DNA from: Chloroflexota bacterium
GTDB lineage: Bacteria; Chloroflexota; Anaerolineae; CG2-30-64-16
Direction of reading: 5' to 3'
DNA length: 24,622 bases
Assembly (NCBI GenBank): GCA_029555885.1
Contig: JAKPQT010000139.1
Coordinates: 1-24,622 of the forward strand
Shown: positions 1,220 through 12,713 of the stretch, piece after piece
Position numbering within the stretch: position 1 is the stretch's first letter
Layout: each line of letters begins with the position of its first letter
Program-made: the position numbers and the translations under genes
The notes under the pieces: generated by a model
What the model saw: only the letters and a program-made list of their open reading frames with translations
Told to the model about the DNA's origin: nothing
Database searches by the model: none

Positions 1220-3052
1220 TTACAGGTCTTTCGCCCGCGTGGCGATCCGCTCCTGCACGAGCGCCACGAATGCATCCGCGTCCATGCCGTCCTGCCGCGA
1301 ACCATCGCGTTTGCGCAGCGACACCGTGTTGTTCTGCGCCTCCTGCTCACCGACCACCGCCATGTACGGCACCTTGAGCAGTTGCGCGCTGCGAATCTTC
1401 GCGTTCATGCGCTCCTGGCCCGCATCCACCTGCACGCGGACGTGGGCCGCGGCCAGCCGGTCCGCCAGCCGGTAAGCGTACTCGTTGTGCGCATCCGTGA
1501 TCGGGATAACCCGCACCTGCTCCGGCGCGAGCCAGGCCGGGAAGTTGCCCGCGTAGTGCTCGATCAGGAAGCCGATCATCCGCTCGTGCGTGCTCAGCGG
1601 CGCACGGTGGATACACAGCGGCGTCTCCTCCTGCCCCTCGCGGTTCGTGAACTTCAAATCGAAGCGCGCGGGCTGGGCGAAGTCCACCTGGTTCGTTGCC
1701 AGCGTGAACTCGCGGCCGATGGCGCTCCACACCTGCACGTCGATCTTCGGACCGTAGAACGCGGCCTCGTCGGCCTGCTCCACGAACGGGATCCCGCCAT
1801 TGGACATCGCCCGGCGCACCATGTCTTCTGTCTTGAGCCACAGCCGCTCGTTGTCGATGTACTTCTTGCCCAGGCCGCGCTTGTGGTGCGTGCTGAAGCG
1901 CATCACATACTTGTCGATGTCGAAGAGCTTGAAGTAATGCAGGTACAGGTCGATGACGGCCATGAACTCCCGCTCGAACTGGTCTTCGGCGCAGTAGATG
2001 TGCGCGTCGTTCATCTGCATCGAGCGCACGCGCATCAGGCCGAACAGTTCACCGCTCTTCTCGTACCGGTAGCACGTGCCGTACTCCGCGAACCGCAAGG
2101 GCAGGTCGCGGTAGCTGTGCGGCCGGGCCGCGAAAATCTTGTGGTGGAAGGGGCAGTTCATCGGCTTGACATAATAGCGCACCCCTTCCAGCTCCATCGC
2201 GGGGTACATGCTCTCTTCATAATAGGGCAGGTGGCCGCTGTGGAGGAACAGGTCCTCCTTCGCCAGGTGGGGCGAGCGCACGCGCACGTAACCCGCCTGC
2301 TCCTCGACCTCCTTCGCCAGCCGCTCCAGCTCCTCGATGAGCACGCCGCCGCGCGGCAGCCAGAGCGGCAGCCCCGGTCCCACCTCCTCGTCGAAGACGA
2401 AGATTTCCAGGTCCTTGCCAAGCTTGCGATGGTCGCGCTTCTTGGCCTCTTCCAGCATCGTCAGATGCGCGGCCAGGTCCTTCTTGTTCTGCCAGACCGT
2501 GCCGTAGATGCGCTGGAGCATCGGGTTGTGCTCGTCACCGCGCCAGTACGCGCCCGCGACATTCATCAGCTTGAACGCGTCCGGCGGAATCTGCCCCGTA
2601 TGCTCCAGGTGTGGCCCGCGGCACAGGTCCTCGAAGTTGCCGTGCCGGTACGTGCTCATGGGCACCGGCCCCTCGATCTCGTTGCCGTCCTCGTCCAGCC
2701 CGCCCTTCGCGAGGCCGTCGATCAGCTCCTGCTTATAGGGCTGGCCCTGGAAGAGCTGCCGCGCCTCGTCCGCCGAGACCTCCCGATACTGGAACGGCTT
2801 CTTTGCGGCGATGGACTGCCGCATGCGCTTCTCGATTTCAGCCAGGTCCTCGGGCGTGAACGTCTTCGGGCGGCCCTGCTCATCCTTGCCCAGGTCGAAG
2901 TCATAGTAGAACCCGGCGTCGATCGCCGGCCCGATGGCCAGCTTGGCGTCCGGGTAGAGCTGCAACACCGCCTCGGCCATGACGTGCGCCGTCGAGTGCC
3001 GCAAGCGATGCAGAAAGTCCTTATCTCCGTCGTGATTGTGTTGCCCGGCCAT
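1220..3052 (-). CDS. thrS: Threonyl-tRNA synthetase lacking the N-terminal TGS domain
   Basis: Charges tRNA-Thr with threonine in the cytoplasm. The 610-residue product begins directly in the editing domain: HSTAH at residues 19-23, and later CRGPH, the two metal-binding editing signatures. The class II catalytic core follows, with the zinc cysteine in MNCPFHH, the motif 2 arginine in GTCYRYEKSGE, the zinc histidine in NDAHIYC, and the zinc histidine and motif 3 arginine in LSTHERMIGF. The anticodon-binding domain ends in GSRQDGMDADAFVAL. The usual roughly 60-residue TGS domain is absent. I chose ATG 3052 because GGAGG lies 5 nt upstream; ATG 3064 and TTG 3076 are in-frame alternatives. Expression is governed by the T-box upstream. 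Confidence 0.97.
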   Translation of the reverse strand: MAGQHNHDGDKDFLHRLRHSTAHVMAEAVLQLYPDAKLAIGPAIDAGFYYDFDLGKDEQGRPKTFTPEDLAEIEKRMRQSIAAKKPFQYREVSADEARQLFQGQPYKQELIDGLAKGGLDEDGNEIEGPVPMSTYRHGNFEDLCRGPHLEHTGQIPPDAFKLMNVAGAYWRGDEHNPMLQRIYGTVWQNKKDLAAHLTMLEEAKKRDHRKLGKDLEIFVFDEEVGPGLPLWLPRGGVLIEELERLAKEVEEQAGYVRVRSPHLAKEDLFLHSGHLPYYEESMYPAMELEGVRYYVKPMNCPFHHKIFAARPHSYRDLPLRFAEYGTCYRYEKSGELFGLMRVRSMQMNDAHIYCAEDQFEREFMAVIDLYLHYFKLFDIDKYVMRFSTHHKRGLGKKYIDNERLWLKTEDMVRRAMSNGGIPFVEQADEAAFYGPKIDVQVWSAIGREFTLATNQVDFAQPARFDLKFTNREGQEETPLCIHRAPLSTHERMIGFLIEHYAGNFPAWLAPEQVRVIPITDAHNEYAYRLADRLAAAHVRVQVDAGQERMNAKIRSAQLLKVPYMAVVGEQEAQNNTVSLRKRDGSRQDGMDADAFVALVQERIATRAKDL

Positions 3053-3202
3053 GATGGCCTCCATTTCTCTACTCAAGTATGACGATCATCAAGTGACAGT
3101 TGAACACAGGGCGGCGCGATGCGCCGCGCCGAGGCGGGAGCACATAGCAGTGTCACCCGCAGTTGTCGTGCCCGACACGGCGATCACCCCCTTTCAGACT
3201 AT

Positions 3203-7817: not shown

Positions 7818-7826
7818 TGCGATAAT
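7818..7826 (+). promoter_or_regulatory. Possible extended -10 promoter for the rhodanese gene
   Basis: TGCGATAAT fits the extended -10 form TGnTATAAT with one mismatch, and no good -35 is present at the expected distance, which is common for activator-dependent promoters. The rhodanese ATG is 65 nt downstream. Weak evidence. Confidence 0.35.
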
Positions 7827-7890
7827 GTCTATGAAGACAGGCGCAATCCCGCGCTTGCTTCTATCGCGCGACCCCTTAGGAGTTACACGA

Positions 7891-8985
7891 ATGTCTCGCA
7901 AGTACTTCTTCATTTTCCTGGCCCTCGTGCTCATCCTGAGTACCTTTGCCATGCCCGCGCTGGCCGCTCCGGTCAGCCAGGCTGCCAACCCCATCCAGGC
8001 TGCCGCCGAACAGTATTTCTCCGGCGGAACCAAGAACATAAAGGCCGCCGACCTGTTCGCCACCCTAAATGATGGCGATGATTCCAATGACCCGATGCTG
8101 ATCGACATCCGCAAGGCGGAGGATTACGCGAACGGCCATATCCCAGGCGCGGTCAACATGAATGCCGCCACGCTGTTCACTGCAGCCGAGCTCGCTAAGC
8201 TCCCGCAGGATAAGCCCATCGTCGTCAACTGCTACACCGGCCAGACCTCCAGCCAGACCGTCGCTGGCCTGCGCATGCTCGGCTACGACGCTTACAGCCT
8301 GCTGTACGGCATCCCAAGCTGGGGCGTCAACGATAAGGTCAAGTATCTCTTCCTCGCCAGCCAAAGCGGCGGTTACGCGGTCTCGCAGGAACCGGCGCAA
8401 TTCGAAGACGAGTTCGAGGCCCCGGCTCCGCTGGGTGCGACGGTTGCCGCCGCGGCGGAGACCTACTATGCAGGTGGATTCAAGGCTACGAAAGCCGCCG
8501 ATGTCTTCGCCAACCTGAATGATGGCGACGACTCCAACAACCCGATGATCCTGGACATGCGCAGCGCGGACGACTATGCGCTCGGCCATATCCCCGGCGC
8601 GATCAACGTCAACGTGAAGGACCTCTTCAAGGCTGACATGCTGGCGAAGCTACCCGCCGACCGCCAGATTGTGTCCTACTGCTACTCCGGCCAGACCGCC
8701 AGCCAGGCGACTGCTGCACTGCGGCTGCTCGGCTACGATGCGTACAACATGCAGTTCGGCATGCCCTCCTGGGCCATCGTCGAAGGCGTTTCCACTGGCG
8801 TGTGGGATGACAGCAAGAGCGGCAACTACACGCTCGAAGGCGCAGCTGCGACTGCGGCTGCTGAGCCTGTCGCCGCGGCCGCCGCGACGCCCGCGACCCT
8901 GCCCGTAACCGGCGCGCCGGTTGCCGGCTTGATGGTGCTGGGCCTGGCGTTGGCCGGTGCCGGCGCCGCCCTGCGCCGCCGCTAA
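7891..8985 (+). CDS. Secreted tandem-rhodanese protein with LPxTG-type surface anchor
   Basis: The 364-residue product has a Sec signal peptide (MSRKYFFIFLALVLILSTFA, cleavage after PALA), two rhodanese domains and a C-terminal sorting signal: LPVTG at 337-341, a hydrophobic stretch, then RRR. The catalytic loops are C114-YTGQT and C264-YSGQT, both with the nucleophilic Cys, so both domains look active. The halves are internal duplicates (NDGDDSNDPM/NDGDDSNNPM; GHIPGAVN/GHIPGAIN). Rhodaneses carry persulfide sulfur between thiosulfate, polysulfide or protein thiols and acceptors. I chose ATG 7891 (AGGAG 8 nt upstream, signal peptide begins there) rather than 7825. The cytochrome gene follows on the same strand, separated by a strong hairpin. 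Confidence 0.92.
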   Translation: MSRKYFFIFLALVLILSTFAMPALAAPVSQAANPIQAAAEQYFSGGTKNIKAADLFATLNDGDDSNDPMLIDIRKAEDYANGHIPGAVNMNAATLFTAAELAKLPQDKPIVVNCYTGQTSSQTVAGLRMLGYDAYSLLYGIPSWGVNDKVKYLFLASQSGGYAVSQEPAQFEDEFEAPAPLGATVAAAAETYYAGGFKATKAADVFANLNDGDDSNNPMILDMRSADDYALGHIPGAINVNVKDLFKADMLAKLPADRQIVSYCYSGQTASQATAALRLLGYDAYNMQFGMPSWAIVEGVSTGVWDDSKSGNYTLEGAAATAAAEPVAAAAATPATLPVTGAPVAGLMVLGLALAGAGAALRRR

Positions 8986-9088: not shown

Positions 9089-10600
9089 ATGTCCCACTCC
9101 TGGCGAGGATGGCCAGCAGCCGCAGCCGCGCTCCTGCTGTGCATCGTCCTCCTGGCAGCCTGTGGCGCCAGCGCCACACCTGCGCCGACGCCGGAGCCCC
9201 CACCGCCCACCGAGGCCCCGACCGAGGCGCCTACCGCCGTCCCGCCGACCGAACCTCCGCCGACGGCCACCGTGGCTCCGACCGAAGCCCCAACCGAAGC
9301 ACCGACTGAAGCACCCACTGAGGCGCCGACCGCCGAGCCGGCGGCTTCCACTGACGCCACCAACTGTATCGAGTGCCACACCAGCGAGGAAACCCTCCAG
9401 CAGTTAGCCGTCGAGGACGAGCCCGCAGAGGAACTCTCCGAAGGCGAAGGCTGAGGGGGCGATGTGCCTCCGTTGGAGGCATGGCAAAAGGTGTATGTAG
9501 ACGCCGAGAAATTCGTTGCATCTGACCCGCACGCCCAGGCTGCGACCTGCATCGACTGCCACGGCGGCGTAGGCGAAACCGACGATATGACCGCTGCGCA
9601 TGAGGGCGTGGTCGTCGATCCCACCAGCAACATTGAATCCGTCCAAAGACTGTGTGGCGCCTGCCACGCGGACATCAGCGAAGCGCAAGTGGTGAGCCTG
9701 CACTTCGACTCACACGGCTATGACACCATCATCGGCCAACGCCTGGGCGATGCACCCGAATCACACGCCGCGTGGGAAGAGGCGGAGGCCAATCACTGCA
9801 GCTCCTGCCACACGACCTGCGGCCAATGCCATATCAGCCAGCCGACGAGCGTAGGCGGCGGGCTCATCAGCGGCCACCAGTTCAAGAGCGTCCAGGCCTT
9901 CACCCGCACGTGCACGGGCTGTCACGGCTCGCGCATCAACAGTGAGTACACCGGCCTGAACGAAGGGATCCCGGCAGACGTACACTGGACCAAAGGTGGG
10001 ATGGCCTGCTTCAAGTGCCACACCGGCCCCGAACTGCACGGCATGAACGCCGACGGCGAGCCGGTCGACAAGACAGAGCGCTACGACGGCGCGCAATCGC
10101 CGGCCTGTACCAACTGCCATCCGGACGCAGTGGCTGGCAAGAGCGAGATCATGCAGCACAATATCCACGGCGAGAAGCTGGCATGCCAGGTGTGCCACAG
10201 CGTCGAGAACAAGAGCTGCTATTCCTGCCACGTCCAGAAGAACGAAGAGGGCGTGCCCTTCTACAAGATCGAGCCGTCCGTCATGGACTTCAAGATCGGC
10301 CTCAATCCGAAGAAGAGCGAGGACCGGCCGTGGGACTACGTGGTCTTGCGGCATGCACCGATCGATCCGGATAACTTCGACTTCTATGGCGAAGATATCC
10401 TGGGGAACTTCGACGCCCTGCCGACCTGGAAGTACGCAACGCCGCACAACATCCAGCGCAACACGCCGCAGACTGCGACGTGCGATGGCTGCCACGGCAA
10501 CGCGGACATCTTCCTGAGCGAGGAGGACCTCCTGCCCTACGAGGTTGAGGCGAACCAGGGTGTGATTCCGACGAAGCTGCCGGCGCCCATCGGGCAGTAG
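9089..10600 (+). CDS. 11-haem c-type cytochrome lipoprotein with in-frame UGA (candidate selenoprotein)
   Basis: Read with TGA 9452-9454 as residue 122, the product is 503 residues. It has a lipoprotein signal (LLAAC, Cys25), a TEAP-repeat linker, a first haem site CIECH (C93), SEGEG-X-GGDVPPLEAW across the TGA, then ten more CxxCH motifs starting at residues 154, 189, 237, 244, 275, 307, 340, 366, 377 and 465. Normal gene calling would give two genes: 9089-9454, and 9464-10600 from a GTG. The second part has no signal peptide although haem attachment occurs outside the cytoplasm, which argues for one protein. A SECIS-like hairpin follows the TGA. The ATG has GGAGG 6 nt upstream. Role: extracytoplasmic electron transfer or reduction, substrate unknown. 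Alternatives are a sequencing error, a true nonsense mutation, or reinitiation. Confidence 0.8.
9452..9454 (+). other. In-frame TGA, candidate selenocysteine codon
   Basis: The codons read GAA GGC GAA GGC TGA GGG GGC GAT GTG CCT CCG TTG, and the frame is open for 121 codons before and 381 after. TGA serves as an ordinary stop for other genes here (polA, argS, the aldo/keto reductase), so it is not reassigned genome-wide. Confidence 0.7.
9461..9485 (+). promoter_or_regulatory. SECIS-like hairpin downstream of the in-frame TGA
   Basis: TGCCTCC (9465-9471) pairs with GGAGGCA (9475-9481) around the 3-nt loop GTT. The stem extends by G-U pairs 9464/9482 and 9463/9483, one mismatch, and 9461-9485. 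The loop starts with G and lies 17 nt after the TGA. Bacterial SECIS elements are described as having a short apical loop with G in its first two positions, about 16-37 nt from the UGA, so all criteria I remember are met. Confidence 0.68.
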
Positions 10601-10668: not shown

Positions 10669-11598
10669 CTACACAGCGTAGGACAACTGGCGCAACTCCT
10701 CGTGTTCCTCCGCAAAAACGAACTCCCAGAAGGCCTGCTCCAGCGGCGTGATGGCATGGCGTACATTGCGCACCATGTAGATGCGCCGCGTCAGAGACAT
10801 ATCCGCGACCGGAACATGCACCACCTTCCCCAGGGCCAGGCCGCGGCTGGCCGCCATGCGCGACACGAACGCCACGCCGATGCCCGCCTCCACCGACATT
10901 TCGATGGCCTCTGCATTGGCGAGCGTCAGCGCGACGGGCAACTGGCCGATGTCCAGCCCGTGCTGATTCAGCCCTTCCAGTAGCACCTCGTACGAACCCG
11001 CCGTAGATTCGCGCAGGATGAAGGGGACGGTCAACAGGTCAGCCGGGACCACCGTGCGCCCGTCGGCCCACGGATGGTCGGGCGGCGCAATCAGGATGAT
11101 GTCATCTTCCAGGAAGTCCCGATATTCCAGCTCCGCACCATGGTTCAGCCGGGCCGAGACGACCGCCATGTCCGCGCGGCATGATAACAGCCAGTCGATT
11201 GCGGCACGGCGGCTCATGATATTGACAGTGACACGGACATCCGGATGCTTGCGCCGGAAGCCCGCCACCAGGCGCGGCAGGACATACTTGCCGACCGTCG
11301 TGCTGCACGCAATGGATAGCTCGCCGATCAGCACACCCTTGAGGCTCCACATGGTTTCCTCGATGTGCTTGACCTGGCGCATGGCCTCCTGTGCGAGGGG
11401 CAGCAGCGCCTGGCCCGCCGCACTGAGCTGGATCGAGCGCCCGTTGCGGCGGAACAGCTCCAGGCCGAGCTGCTTCTCGAGATTGCTGATGTGTAGGCTG
11501 ACTGCGGGCTGGCTGAGATACAGCCGCCGCGCCGCGACAGAGAAGTTCTGCGCCAGCGCAGCCTCGATGAATACGTTGAGTTCATGGATGTTGAGCAT
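10669..11598 (-). CDS. LysR-type transcriptional regulator
   Basis: A 309-residue LTTR. The N-terminal winged helix-turn-helix reads MLNIHELNVFIEAALAQNFS, then AARRLYLSQPAVSLHISNLE, KQLGLELFRRNGRSIQLSAAG, followed by the linker helix and a periplasmic-binding-like effector domain (LSIACSTTVGKYVLPRLVAG... FILRESTAGSYEVL... AGIGVAFVSRMA). The ligand is not predictable; the domain resembles the CysB/CbbR-like branch in general form. The start ATG 11598 has GGAGG 8 nt upstream; an alternative ATG at 11613 overlaps the upstream hydrolase stop as TGATG. It follows the hydrolase gene by 14 nt, unlike the usual divergent LysR layout, and the dyad at 12792-12805 ahead of the hydrolase is a candidate target. 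Confidence 0.94.
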   Translation of the reverse strand: MLNIHELNVFIEAALAQNFSVAARRLYLSQPAVSLHISNLEKQLGLELFRRNGRSIQLSAAGQALLPLAQEAMRQVKHIEETMWSLKGVLIGELSIACSTTVGKYVLPRLVAGFRRKHPDVRVTVNIMSRRAAIDWLLSCRADMAVVSARLNHGAELEYRDFLEDDIILIAPPDHPWADGRTVVPADLLTVPFILRESTAGSYEVLLEGLNQHGLDIGQLPVALTLANAEAIEMSVEAGIGVAFVSRMAASRGLALGKVVHVPVADMSLTRRIYMVRNVRHAITPLEQAFWEFVFAEEHEELRQLSYAV

Positions 11599-11612
11599 AC
11601 GCGCCGCCTCCA

Positions 11613-12713
11613 TCAGCGGGCCGCCTGGGCCTGCTGCCACAAGAAGTCATAGGCACGACGGCCGCTGATCTGATGGCGGCCCTCGAACTCGTCTAGCTCG
11701 ACATCCTGCTGTCCGTCACCGCCCAGCACTGCGCAGATTTCGCGCGCACGGGCCACGCTCGCACGCACGGTCGCGATGGGGAAGATGGGATCGCGCGTGC
11801 CCGCCTCAACCAGCATGGGTCGCGGCAGAATCAGGCCTACCAGGTCAGCCATCTCGCCGAGCTTGAGCAGCCCGGGCACGAAGTTGCACGTGCAGTGATC
11901 CATTGCGAGGATGCTGTCGCCGAAGCTGCTGAAGTAGCCGCTGATGACGCAGGCACGGATGCGCGTGTCCAGCATGGTGTGGAAGAAGGTCAACATGCCG
12001 CCGCCGGAAATGCCCATTGCGACCGTCCGACTCGCGTCAGCCTCGGGCAGCGTGGTGAGATAATCCAGCAGCCGCATCCCGTCGCGCACGCGCATCCCCA
12101 CGACCGACTTGCCGAGCATGAAGGCATAGGTTGCTGCGTTGTGGCAGGTCGAGGGCTGCGGCTGGCCCAGCTTCGTGTCCAGGTAGCCGTAGTCCGTCTG
12201 CCGTTCGCCGAAGCAGGCAATTTCCGGCGCGGCCACCACGAACCCCCGGCGGCACAGCTCGATCGCAAAATCCTTGTGGTAGCCGTCCGGTGTCAGCCGC
12301 TCTGTGCCATCTTCCCACAGGCCCACGATGTCCTTGACGCCGTAGCCGTGGCCCGCATAAGCCACGGCCACGGGACGTGGACCGGCCACGGGACGTGGAC
12401 CGGCCGTGTCCTTCGGCAACAGCAGGTAGACCGGCATAAGCGTGTGCTCCGCGGTACGGAGGATCACCTTGCGCCGGATGAAGTCTCCGCGGTCCACCTC
12501 TTCGATCACCTGTGGATCGGCCGGGACAGCCGGATCATCGAGGAAGCCGACCGTTTCTGCGAGCGCGGCGCGGCAGGCCTGCTGCCAGGCTTCCGCTTCG
12601 GCGCGCATGGTCGCAGTAAACGGAAAACGGGCTGCGCCCGCGGCTCGCGCGTGCAGCTCACAGGTCGGTTGCAGCTCGGGCAGGTCTGAGGCATGCAGGA
12701 TGCGACTGGTCAT
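11613..12713 (-). CDS. Alpha/beta hydrolase (dienelactone hydrolase / acetyl-xylan esterase-like)
   Basis: A 366-residue alpha/beta-hydrolase-fold protein. The nucleophile elbow is GISGGG (AMGISGGGMLTFF), the acid probably in VEAGTRDPIFPI and the histidine in FEGRHQISG. Upstream are the oxyanion region AYAGHGYGVKDIVG and the segment RGFVVAAPEIACFGERQTDY, typical of the large esterase group related to acetyl-xylan esterases and DUF-type abhydrolases. There is no signal peptide, so it is cytoplasmic. The substrate is unknown. ATG 12713 is chosen because the upstream frame is not protein-like, but its ribosome site is weak. A perfect 18-nt tandem duplication (12366-12401) doubles AGPRPV. Cotranscribed with the LysR gene. 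Confidence 0.85.
   Translation of the reverse strand: MTSRILHASDLPELQPTCELHARAAGAARFPFTATMRAEAEAWQQACRAALAETVGFLDDPAVPADPQVIEEVDRGDFIRRKVILRTAEHTLMPVYLLLPKDTAGPRPVAGPRPVAVAYAGHGYGVKDIVGLWEDGTERLTPDGYHKDFAIELCRRGFVVAAPEIACFGERQTDYGYLDTKLGQPQPSTCHNAATYAFMLGKSVVGMRVRDGMRLLDYLTTLPEADASRTVAMGISGGGMLTFFHTMLDTRIRACVISGYFSSFGDSILAMDHCTCNFVPGLLKLGEMADLVGLILPRPMLVEAGTRDPIFPIATVRASVARAREICAVLGGDGQQDVELDEFEGRHQISGRRAYDFLWQQAQAAR

Follow-up and report, generated by a model that had tools for sequence, protein, structure and literature searches.

A probable selenocysteine in an eleven-haem lipoprotein cytochrome of Chloroflexota and its association with an exported rhodanese

Introduction

In the genome of a Chloroflexota bacterium, a lipoprotein signal and a first CxxCH motif are followed by an in-frame TGA and then, in the same frame, by a body with ten further CxxCH motifs. 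Is the TGA the end of a small gene, an error in the sequence, or a codon that is read as selenocysteine (Sec) within one long protein, and what would a Sec do in such a multihaem cytochrome? The locus lies in a stretch of 24,622 nucleotides (GenBank assembly GCA_029555885.1, contig JAKPQT010000139.1), here called the window, for which a new selenoprotein had been proposed from the sequence.

Selenoproteins that may offer a precedent have been put forward before. Passages of a review count ExtKL as a selenoprotein, together with a GSU2204 family and an octahaem family (PMC13188914), and GSU2937 plus GSU2936 was proposed as a selenoprotein candidate in a section of an earlier study (PMC1914089). 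Excerpts of two papers describe an ExtHIJKL cluster that includes a rhodanese and a LysR gene (PMC5877670, PMC6148476); in an excerpt of the former, extI is linked to selenite and tellurite reduction, and ExtKL is proposed as a candidate for selenite reduction.

Results

One reading frame through the TGA

The features of the window to which the text refers are the following:

7825..8985, plus strand: exported double-rhodanese protein with a C-terminal LPVTG-type tail, upstream neighbour of the cytochrome (Pfam Rhodanese, two stretches)
9089..10600, plus strand: predicted eleven-haem lipoprotein cytochrome, complete coding sequence of 503 aa with the putative Sec at residue 122 (sequence and homologues)
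9089..9163, plus strand: lipoprotein signal with lipobox LAAC, Cys25 (sequence; Cys25 in at least 90% of 60 aligned proteins)
9365..9379, plus strand: haem site 1, CIECH, residues 93-97, 5' of the TGA (invariant in 60 aligned proteins)
9452..9454, plus strand: in-frame TGA, very probably read as Sec (78 of 80 relatives also have TGA here)
9455..10600, plus strand: body with ten CxxCH (Pfam Cytochrome_C7 and Cytochrom_c3_2 over cut-off)
9465..9481, plus strand: bSECIS-like hairpin UGCCUCC-GUU-GGAGGCA, its loop G 17 nt from the UGA (comparative folding and covariation)
10669..11640, minus strand: LysR-type regulator adjoining the cytochrome gene (Pfam HTH_1 and LysR_substrate)

The ATG at 9089, the TGA at 9452-9454 and the TAG at 10598-10600 share a single frame, which confirms the original prediction that signal and haem 1 (9089-9451) run in frame with the ten-CxxCH body and that a single TGA lies between them. 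The 121 residues upstream of the TGA hold the signal (...LLCIVLLAAC, ending on Cys25), a Pro/Thr/Glu linker and the first CxxCH, and the other ten CxxCH follow the TGA. Readthrough would give the context SEGEG-U-GGDVPPLEAW at residue 122, so that the segment SEGEG-U-GGD falls between haems 1 and 2 as had been proposed. The body begins near PPLEAWQKV, where no export signal of its own is visible, again as proposed; c haems are attached outside the cytoplasm. With eleven CxxCH, a lipobox and Pfam c7/c3 matches, the readthrough product has the marks of a multihaem c-type cytochrome. TGA ends six of 16 window genes that were chosen by hand, the cytochrome with its own TAG end being counted among the 16, and TGA is therefore an ordinary stop in the window, a point on which the prediction also holds. 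An in-frame GTG at 9464 is the start of a database entry of 378 aa (P0002) and adjoins the conserved hairpin.

The TGA and its surroundings in relatives

At E <= 1e-5, 870 database proteins matched, and the best 120 of these were examined. Among these, 116 are 344-383 aa long and 115 start within a few residues of a conserved Trp after the TGA site (MPPLEAWEKV-like); P0033, P0073 and P0103 extend past the site, and P0086 and P0096 start elsewhere. A scan of genome contigs found 189 relatives, and in the best 80 of these the same codon is TGA in 78, besides the window; L013 has TGG and L046 has TTG. The 79 TGA sequences, window included, mostly follow the consensus S-[EK]-G-[EV]-G-U-G-G-x-V-[PA]-P-L-E-x-W, in which Gly (-3, -1, +2) and Trp (+10) are invariant (79/79).

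Is the stretch before the TGA translated? In 112 sequence pairs, each less than 30% divergent, the region from haem 1 to the TGA carries 513, 441 and 1441 substitutions at codon positions 1, 2 and 3, respectively; because third positions take 1441 of the 2395 substitutions, this stretch is coding in the frame of the cytochrome. Its changed codons are synonymous in 1024 cases and not in 747, and the distance from haem 1 to the TGA is 28-31 codons in 78 of 79 sequences, the exception (L080) being cut. Homologues have an in-frame TGA (78/80) or, in one subfamily, Cys at the position, the pattern that had been named as support for Sec. Two of the outcomes named as refutation, a sequencing or assembly error and homologues that consist of separate halves, are not borne out: the same TGA stands in 78 of 80 other assemblies, uninterrupted full-length homologues exist, and the sequence before the TGA is coding as far as that codon.

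The family was also followed through whole genomes. Of 150 genomes of the class of Thermanaerothrix daxensis, a cultivable carrier of the gene (L061), 32 have a match, with an in-frame TGA in 27 of the 32. A draw of 298 genomes of the same class, which overlaps the first, was queried with P0142 and yielded 66 matches in 64 genomes; 59 have a TGA, which on reading the codon lies at the site in 59/59. The remaining seven have Trp (G008), Leu (G009), His (G427), Phe (first copy of G419), Val with Trp beside it (G124), Val near a contig end (G074), or are a fragment with the site outside it (G162). The contig of G419 (L178) holds two cytochrome copies, one with TGA and the other with Phe at the site. 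Among 148 genomes from the class to which G016, an Acidimicrobiia assembly, belongs, four carry the family, each with TGA. Relatives with a phylum label are Chloroflexota or Actinomycetota, except L023; this contig is labelled Candidatus Thorarchaeota and carries a Chloroflexota-like copy that sits among Chloroflexota in the tree, probably through a binning error, or else through a transfer. The nearest relative of the window (L001, genome G004) is 90% identical over the body, and its genome has SelA, SelB, SelC and SelD over cut-off. No relative was found in viral contigs, and a sequence search of the PDB gave no match.

A conserved hairpin after the TGA

A bacterial SECIS element is a hairpin shortly downstream of the UGA, with a G beginning its small apical loop, and a hairpin just 3' of the UGA with a loop that starts with G is present in all 79 sequences compared. 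Folded alone, the window hairpin does not stand out (z -1.41, with an equally good fold in 20 of 200 shuffles), and we therefore relied on a comparative test in which synonymous codons were resampled according to each gene's own usage (200 rounds). At least six of seven stem pairs form in 79/79 sequences, against 8.8% under resampling, and all seven form in 49/79, against 0.7%. The mean number of stem pairs is 6.62, no resampled round having a mean above 4.39, and the mean MFE of nucleotides 11-34 is -12.6, against -5.1 for the resampled sequences. In the covariation count, 94.4% of cells are paired and 43 are double-changed, compared with 18.0 after shuffling (0 of 500 shuffles as high); slid registers of the hairpin give at most 6 double-changed cells.

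Codon choice within the hairpin is fixed, with TTG for Leu (62/62), CCG for Pro (72/72), GAG for Glu (76/76) and GCT for Ala (38/38); in the bodies, Leu is TTG in 264 of 1361 cases. The apical loop is GTT in 62 of the 79 sequences, GGT in 8, GAT in 8 and GGC in 1. Ala at codon 5 pairs with Pro at codon 9 in 38/38, and Pro at codon 5 pairs with Ala (31), Gly (6) or Val (2); because these Ala/Pro swaps compensate each other, the stem is maintained while the protein changes. Folding energy is lost in L046, the TTG form (-5.6), and kept in L013, the TGG form (-10.9). Two TGA copies outside the set of 79 (L121, L166) have a hairpin that is shifted by a few bases and has an altered loop. An Rfam search of the window matched only a tRNA, and the missing SECIS match there was not counted as evidence. 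The hairpin is support beyond what the original prediction had mentioned.

Selenocysteine machinery in the genomes of relatives

In 20 genomes of relatives, SelA is over cut-off in 20 and SelB, SelC (tRNA-Sec) and SelD in 18 each, and in 14 control genomes the counts are 1 for SelA, 2 for SelB, 5 for tRNA-Sec and 2 for SelD. G001, the genome of T. daxensis, has all four over cut-off. Since five of the 14 controls pass, the tRNA-Sec test is loose; the matches in 18 of the 20 relatives' genomes score 63-77 bits. G003, in which a TGA copy is present, has no SelB, SelC or SelD over cut-off, and single gaps occur in G009 and G140 (SelB), G005 (SelC) and G007 (SelD), the completeness of these genomes not being given. 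A SelD match itself carries an in-frame TGA in 18 of 20 genomes, in the usual Sec context (e.g. SCAGUASK) in 14 of the 18, the motif picks in L125, L126, L127 and L129 being other frames; because SelD carries this TGA, a second gene of these genomes bears the same mark of UGA decoding. SelB is present in 26 of 27 TGA carriers against 98 of 123 other genomes among the 150 (Fisher p = 0.047), but it is near-universal in the class (124/150), so that this co-occurrence is weak evidence.

Residues that replace Sec

What stands at the site where Sec is absent? Aligning the site by counting back from the conserved Trp places Cys there in P0138, P0141, P0142, P0146 and P0169, with a second Cys preceding it. 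In the tree, this Cys clade nests among Sec forms, including loci with a fused rhodanese (L016, L030). Its members are 13-CxxCH proteins in which Cys-Cys (e.g. ECCAVELPP) stands in place of the Gly-Sec of the Sec forms; at the same site, P0139 and P0148 read Cys-Trp. Trp occurs at the site or one residue off it in L013, P0033, P0103, P0139, P0148, P0172 and P0205, and is the commonest residue in place of Sec, ahead of Cys, which is unusual for a redox Sec. By a quick method the tree requires at least six changes of the Sec label; the letters were assigned by hand, and an X was given to the 9 of 102 rows whose alignment was unclear.

Haem sites and histidines

For the haem sites we aligned 60 of 81 sequences, after setting aside 14 loci that were truncated, fused or of uncertain start, and 7 others. 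The eleven CxxCH and eleven further His (His148, 171, 205, 236, 263, 299, 317, 357, 360, 422 and 453) are invariant in these 60 full-length sequences, and no further Cys, Cys25 and the Sec site apart, reaches 90% conservation. Judged from this alignment, each haem could have two His, and the chain would hold no partner Cys for Sec. Since bis-His ligation is open to all the haems and there is no further conserved Cys, the reaction partner of Sec most likely lies outside the chain. Sec as a haem ligand was considered as the main reading and was rejected on account of the eleven further invariant His.

A rhodanese beside the selenocytochrome

A rhodanese match lies on the cytochrome's strand in 67 of the 80 relatives' loci. 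Among 49 well-flanked loci, with at least 1.5 kb on both sides, a rhodanese lies within 2 kb in 47 of 47 Sec loci and in 0 of 2 non-Sec loci (p = 0.00085, kinship ignored). All 80 loci divide into 68 Sec loci with a rhodanese, 10 Sec loci without and 2 non-Sec loci without, and the ten Sec loci that lack one all have one flank shorter than 1.5 kb. In four loci (L016, L023, L024, L030) the rhodanese sequence is continuous with that of the cytochrome and shares its frame as far as the TGA. Two further loci, drawn from other forms of the family, gave the following: no rhodanese was found within 9 kb in L142 (non-Sec), nor within the 5.4 kb of L180 (His form).

The operons of L143 (TGA) and L013 (TGG) are 84-86% identical. 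In L143 a rhodanese gene (2098-3186) lies between a 13-haem gene and the cytochrome, and just that piece is missing in L013; aligning L013:5596-5605 with L143:2075-3302, the rhodanese gene is lost, TGG stands for TGA and the hairpin is intact. The difference between these two sequences looks like a recent joint loss of rhodanese and Sec.

The rhodanese of T. daxensis, encoded downstream of the cytochrome, carries a lipoprotein signal, and a Cys loop is present in each of its four rhodanese domains (three CASGHR, one CKSGHR); the loops of the window rhodanese are CYTGQT and CYSGQT, all of them read by eye. The window rhodanese (7825-8985) ends in LPVTG, a hydrophobic stretch and RRR, like a sortase signal; by a simple pattern, similar tails occur in 6 of 68 neighbouring rhodanese genes. 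A LysR-family match is present somewhere in 32 of the 49 well-flanked loci. L013 and L046 carry NrfC-like and NrfD-like genes (by Pfam Fer4 and NrfD in L013, by similarity in L046), so that a quinone-linked complex is another possible partner of the cytochrome; an NrfD-like match is found in 10 of the 47 well-flanked Sec loci too.

Relation to known multihaem cytochromes

The original prediction knew of no described multihaem cytochrome selenoprotein, and in this respect it has to be corrected. According to the portions of the sources cited here, ExtKL of Geobacter sulfurreducens (GSU2937-GSU2936, NF040886) is predicted to be a multihaem c-type selenocytochrome split by a TGA, and its cluster contains a rhodanese lipoprotein (ExtH) and mostly a LysR gene on the opposite strand. 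The layout of a rhodanese and a LysR gene beside a selenocytochrome is thus shared with ExtHIJKL, a resemblance of gene order from which common descent does not follow. ExtKL differs, in the same portions, in having five CxxCH in its N-terminal part, followed by a C-terminal part without known relatives (PMC1914089, PMC6148476), whereas the window family has one CxxCH before Sec and ten after it. P0001, L061, L143, P0142 and P0169 gave no match to NF040886 up to E 10, in a search whose HMMER filters drop many weak matches.

Single members match the ExtM, ExtN and ExtO models (NF040943, NF040967, NF040968) at 22-41 bits over multihaem stretches, with cut-offs of 200-800 bits, and such matched stretches do not establish membership. 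The tetrathionate reductase family octahaem cytochrome (TIGR04315) is multihaem too, and a GenBank-annotated Sec member is listed in a passage of the review (PMC13188914), but P0103, P0142 and P0169 score 18.6-22.7 bits against a cut-off of 375, and P0001 has no match up to E 10. The deca- and pentahaem cytochromes MtrC/OmcA, DmsE and NrfB are approached through Pfam Mtrc-MtrF and cytochrome c3/c7, which are over cut-off; the NCBIfam matches to them are weak and none exceeds its cut-off. To our knowledge, no Sec occurs in the MtrC/OmcA, DmsE and NrfB models. Across NCBIfam, no model is over cut-off for P0001, P0033, P0103, L122, L013, L061, L143, P0142 or P0169, and in open-licence literature, searched by title or abstract start, no paper on this cytochrome family was among the matches listed; the passages cited above do not describe it either. 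Because no NCBIfam cut-off is passed and Sec lies elsewhere in the chain than in ExtKL, we regard the family as a new selenoprotein family of a known kind, the multihaem selenocytochrome.

Discussion

How is the UGA read? Taken together, we consider it likely that the locus encodes one Sec-containing lipoprotein cytochrome which acts with a rhodanese, and decoding of the UGA as Sec is nearly certain on the comparative evidence. Conservation of the UGA, the hairpin, continuity of coding, the sel genes of relatives and the linkage to the rhodanese are supported by the sequences.

Two rivals concern the codon itself. A pair of independent genes, or an error of sequencing or assembly, could be argued from the database proteins, which begin after the TGA, and from the in-frame GTG at 9464; this is hardly credible given the same TGA in 78 of 80 other assemblies, a first part that is coding up to it, the existence of uninterrupted full-length homologues, and a body that lacks an export signal although c haems are attached outside. 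Programmed near-cognate readthrough with tryptophan would account for the Trp at or one off the site in several non-UGA homologues and for the hairpin that L013 keeps with its TGG, but it is very improbable: a hairpin at SECIS spacing under extreme synonymous constraint, sel genes in the same genomes with an in-frame TGA in SelD in 18/20, the Cys in a nested clade and the weak hairpin of the TTG form L046 all speak against it.

Two further rivals accept Sec and differ on what it does. Ligation of haem 1 or haem 2, by which Sec would tune that haem, fits the position of Sec between the two in the chain, and Cys ligation is known in other sulfur cytochromes; yet eleven CxxCH and eleven invariant His can serve every haem, and relatives have Trp, Leu, Phe or His instead of Sec, which makes an axial role improbable. 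It is rather unlikely that the same protein has another job, its Sec centre reducing selenite or tellurite or gating electrons to metals as proposed for Geobacter ExtHIJKL. The parallel gene set of rhodanese, Sec multihaem cytochrome and LysR regulator points that way, as do the link of Geobacter extI to selenite and tellurite reduction and the candidacy of ExtKL for selenite in an excerpt of PMC5877670, but no NCBIfam Ext model reaches its cut-off.

How might the Sec cytochrome then work with its neighbour? From these comparisons we infer actual insertion of Sec, contact with the rhodanese, a substrate and a direction of electron flow. The SECIS hairpin after the UGA at 9452-9454 would recruit SelB with Sec-tRNA, so that Sec is inserted at residue 122 and translation continues. 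The chain would be exported as a lipoprotein and take up eleven c haems, forming an outside-facing electron wire, with Sec in the glycine-rich segment that separates haems 1 and 2, where it may react with a partner outside the chain. The exported rhodanese, the best candidate for this partner, could load sulfane sulfur (or selenium) on its Cys, and Sec could take the sulfur from the rhodanese or split a persulfide. Electrons would pass between Sec and the haems, most likely toward reducing sulfur species. Judging from gene linkage, the rhodanese is fairly likely to be the functional partner of the selenocytochrome; sulfane-sulfur reduction as the function is a tentative proposal. Equally tentatively, tandem rhodanese and selenocytochrome may form a cell-surface sulfur/selenium device in which Sec is the gate, for entry or exit, to an eleven-haem wire, a device whose origin in Chloroflexota and Actinomycetota would be separate from that of Geobacter ExtH/ExtKL and which would drop Sec when the rhodanese is lost.

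The family occurs in 64 of 298 sampled genomes of the T. daxensis class, and is widespread; it is mis-called in databases, where its forms are stored without the first haem, the lipid anchor and Sec (116 of the best 120 at 344-383 aa). A protein of this kind could be misplaced when surface electron transfer in Chloroflexota is surveyed. Read as proposed, the locus would add a selenoprotein family that connects Sec to haems and links it with a rhodanese. The near-identical pair of operons with and without Sec and rhodanese would make the role of Sec directly testable, and the parallel with Geobacter ExtH/ExtKL, whose role is open as well, suggests a general pairing.
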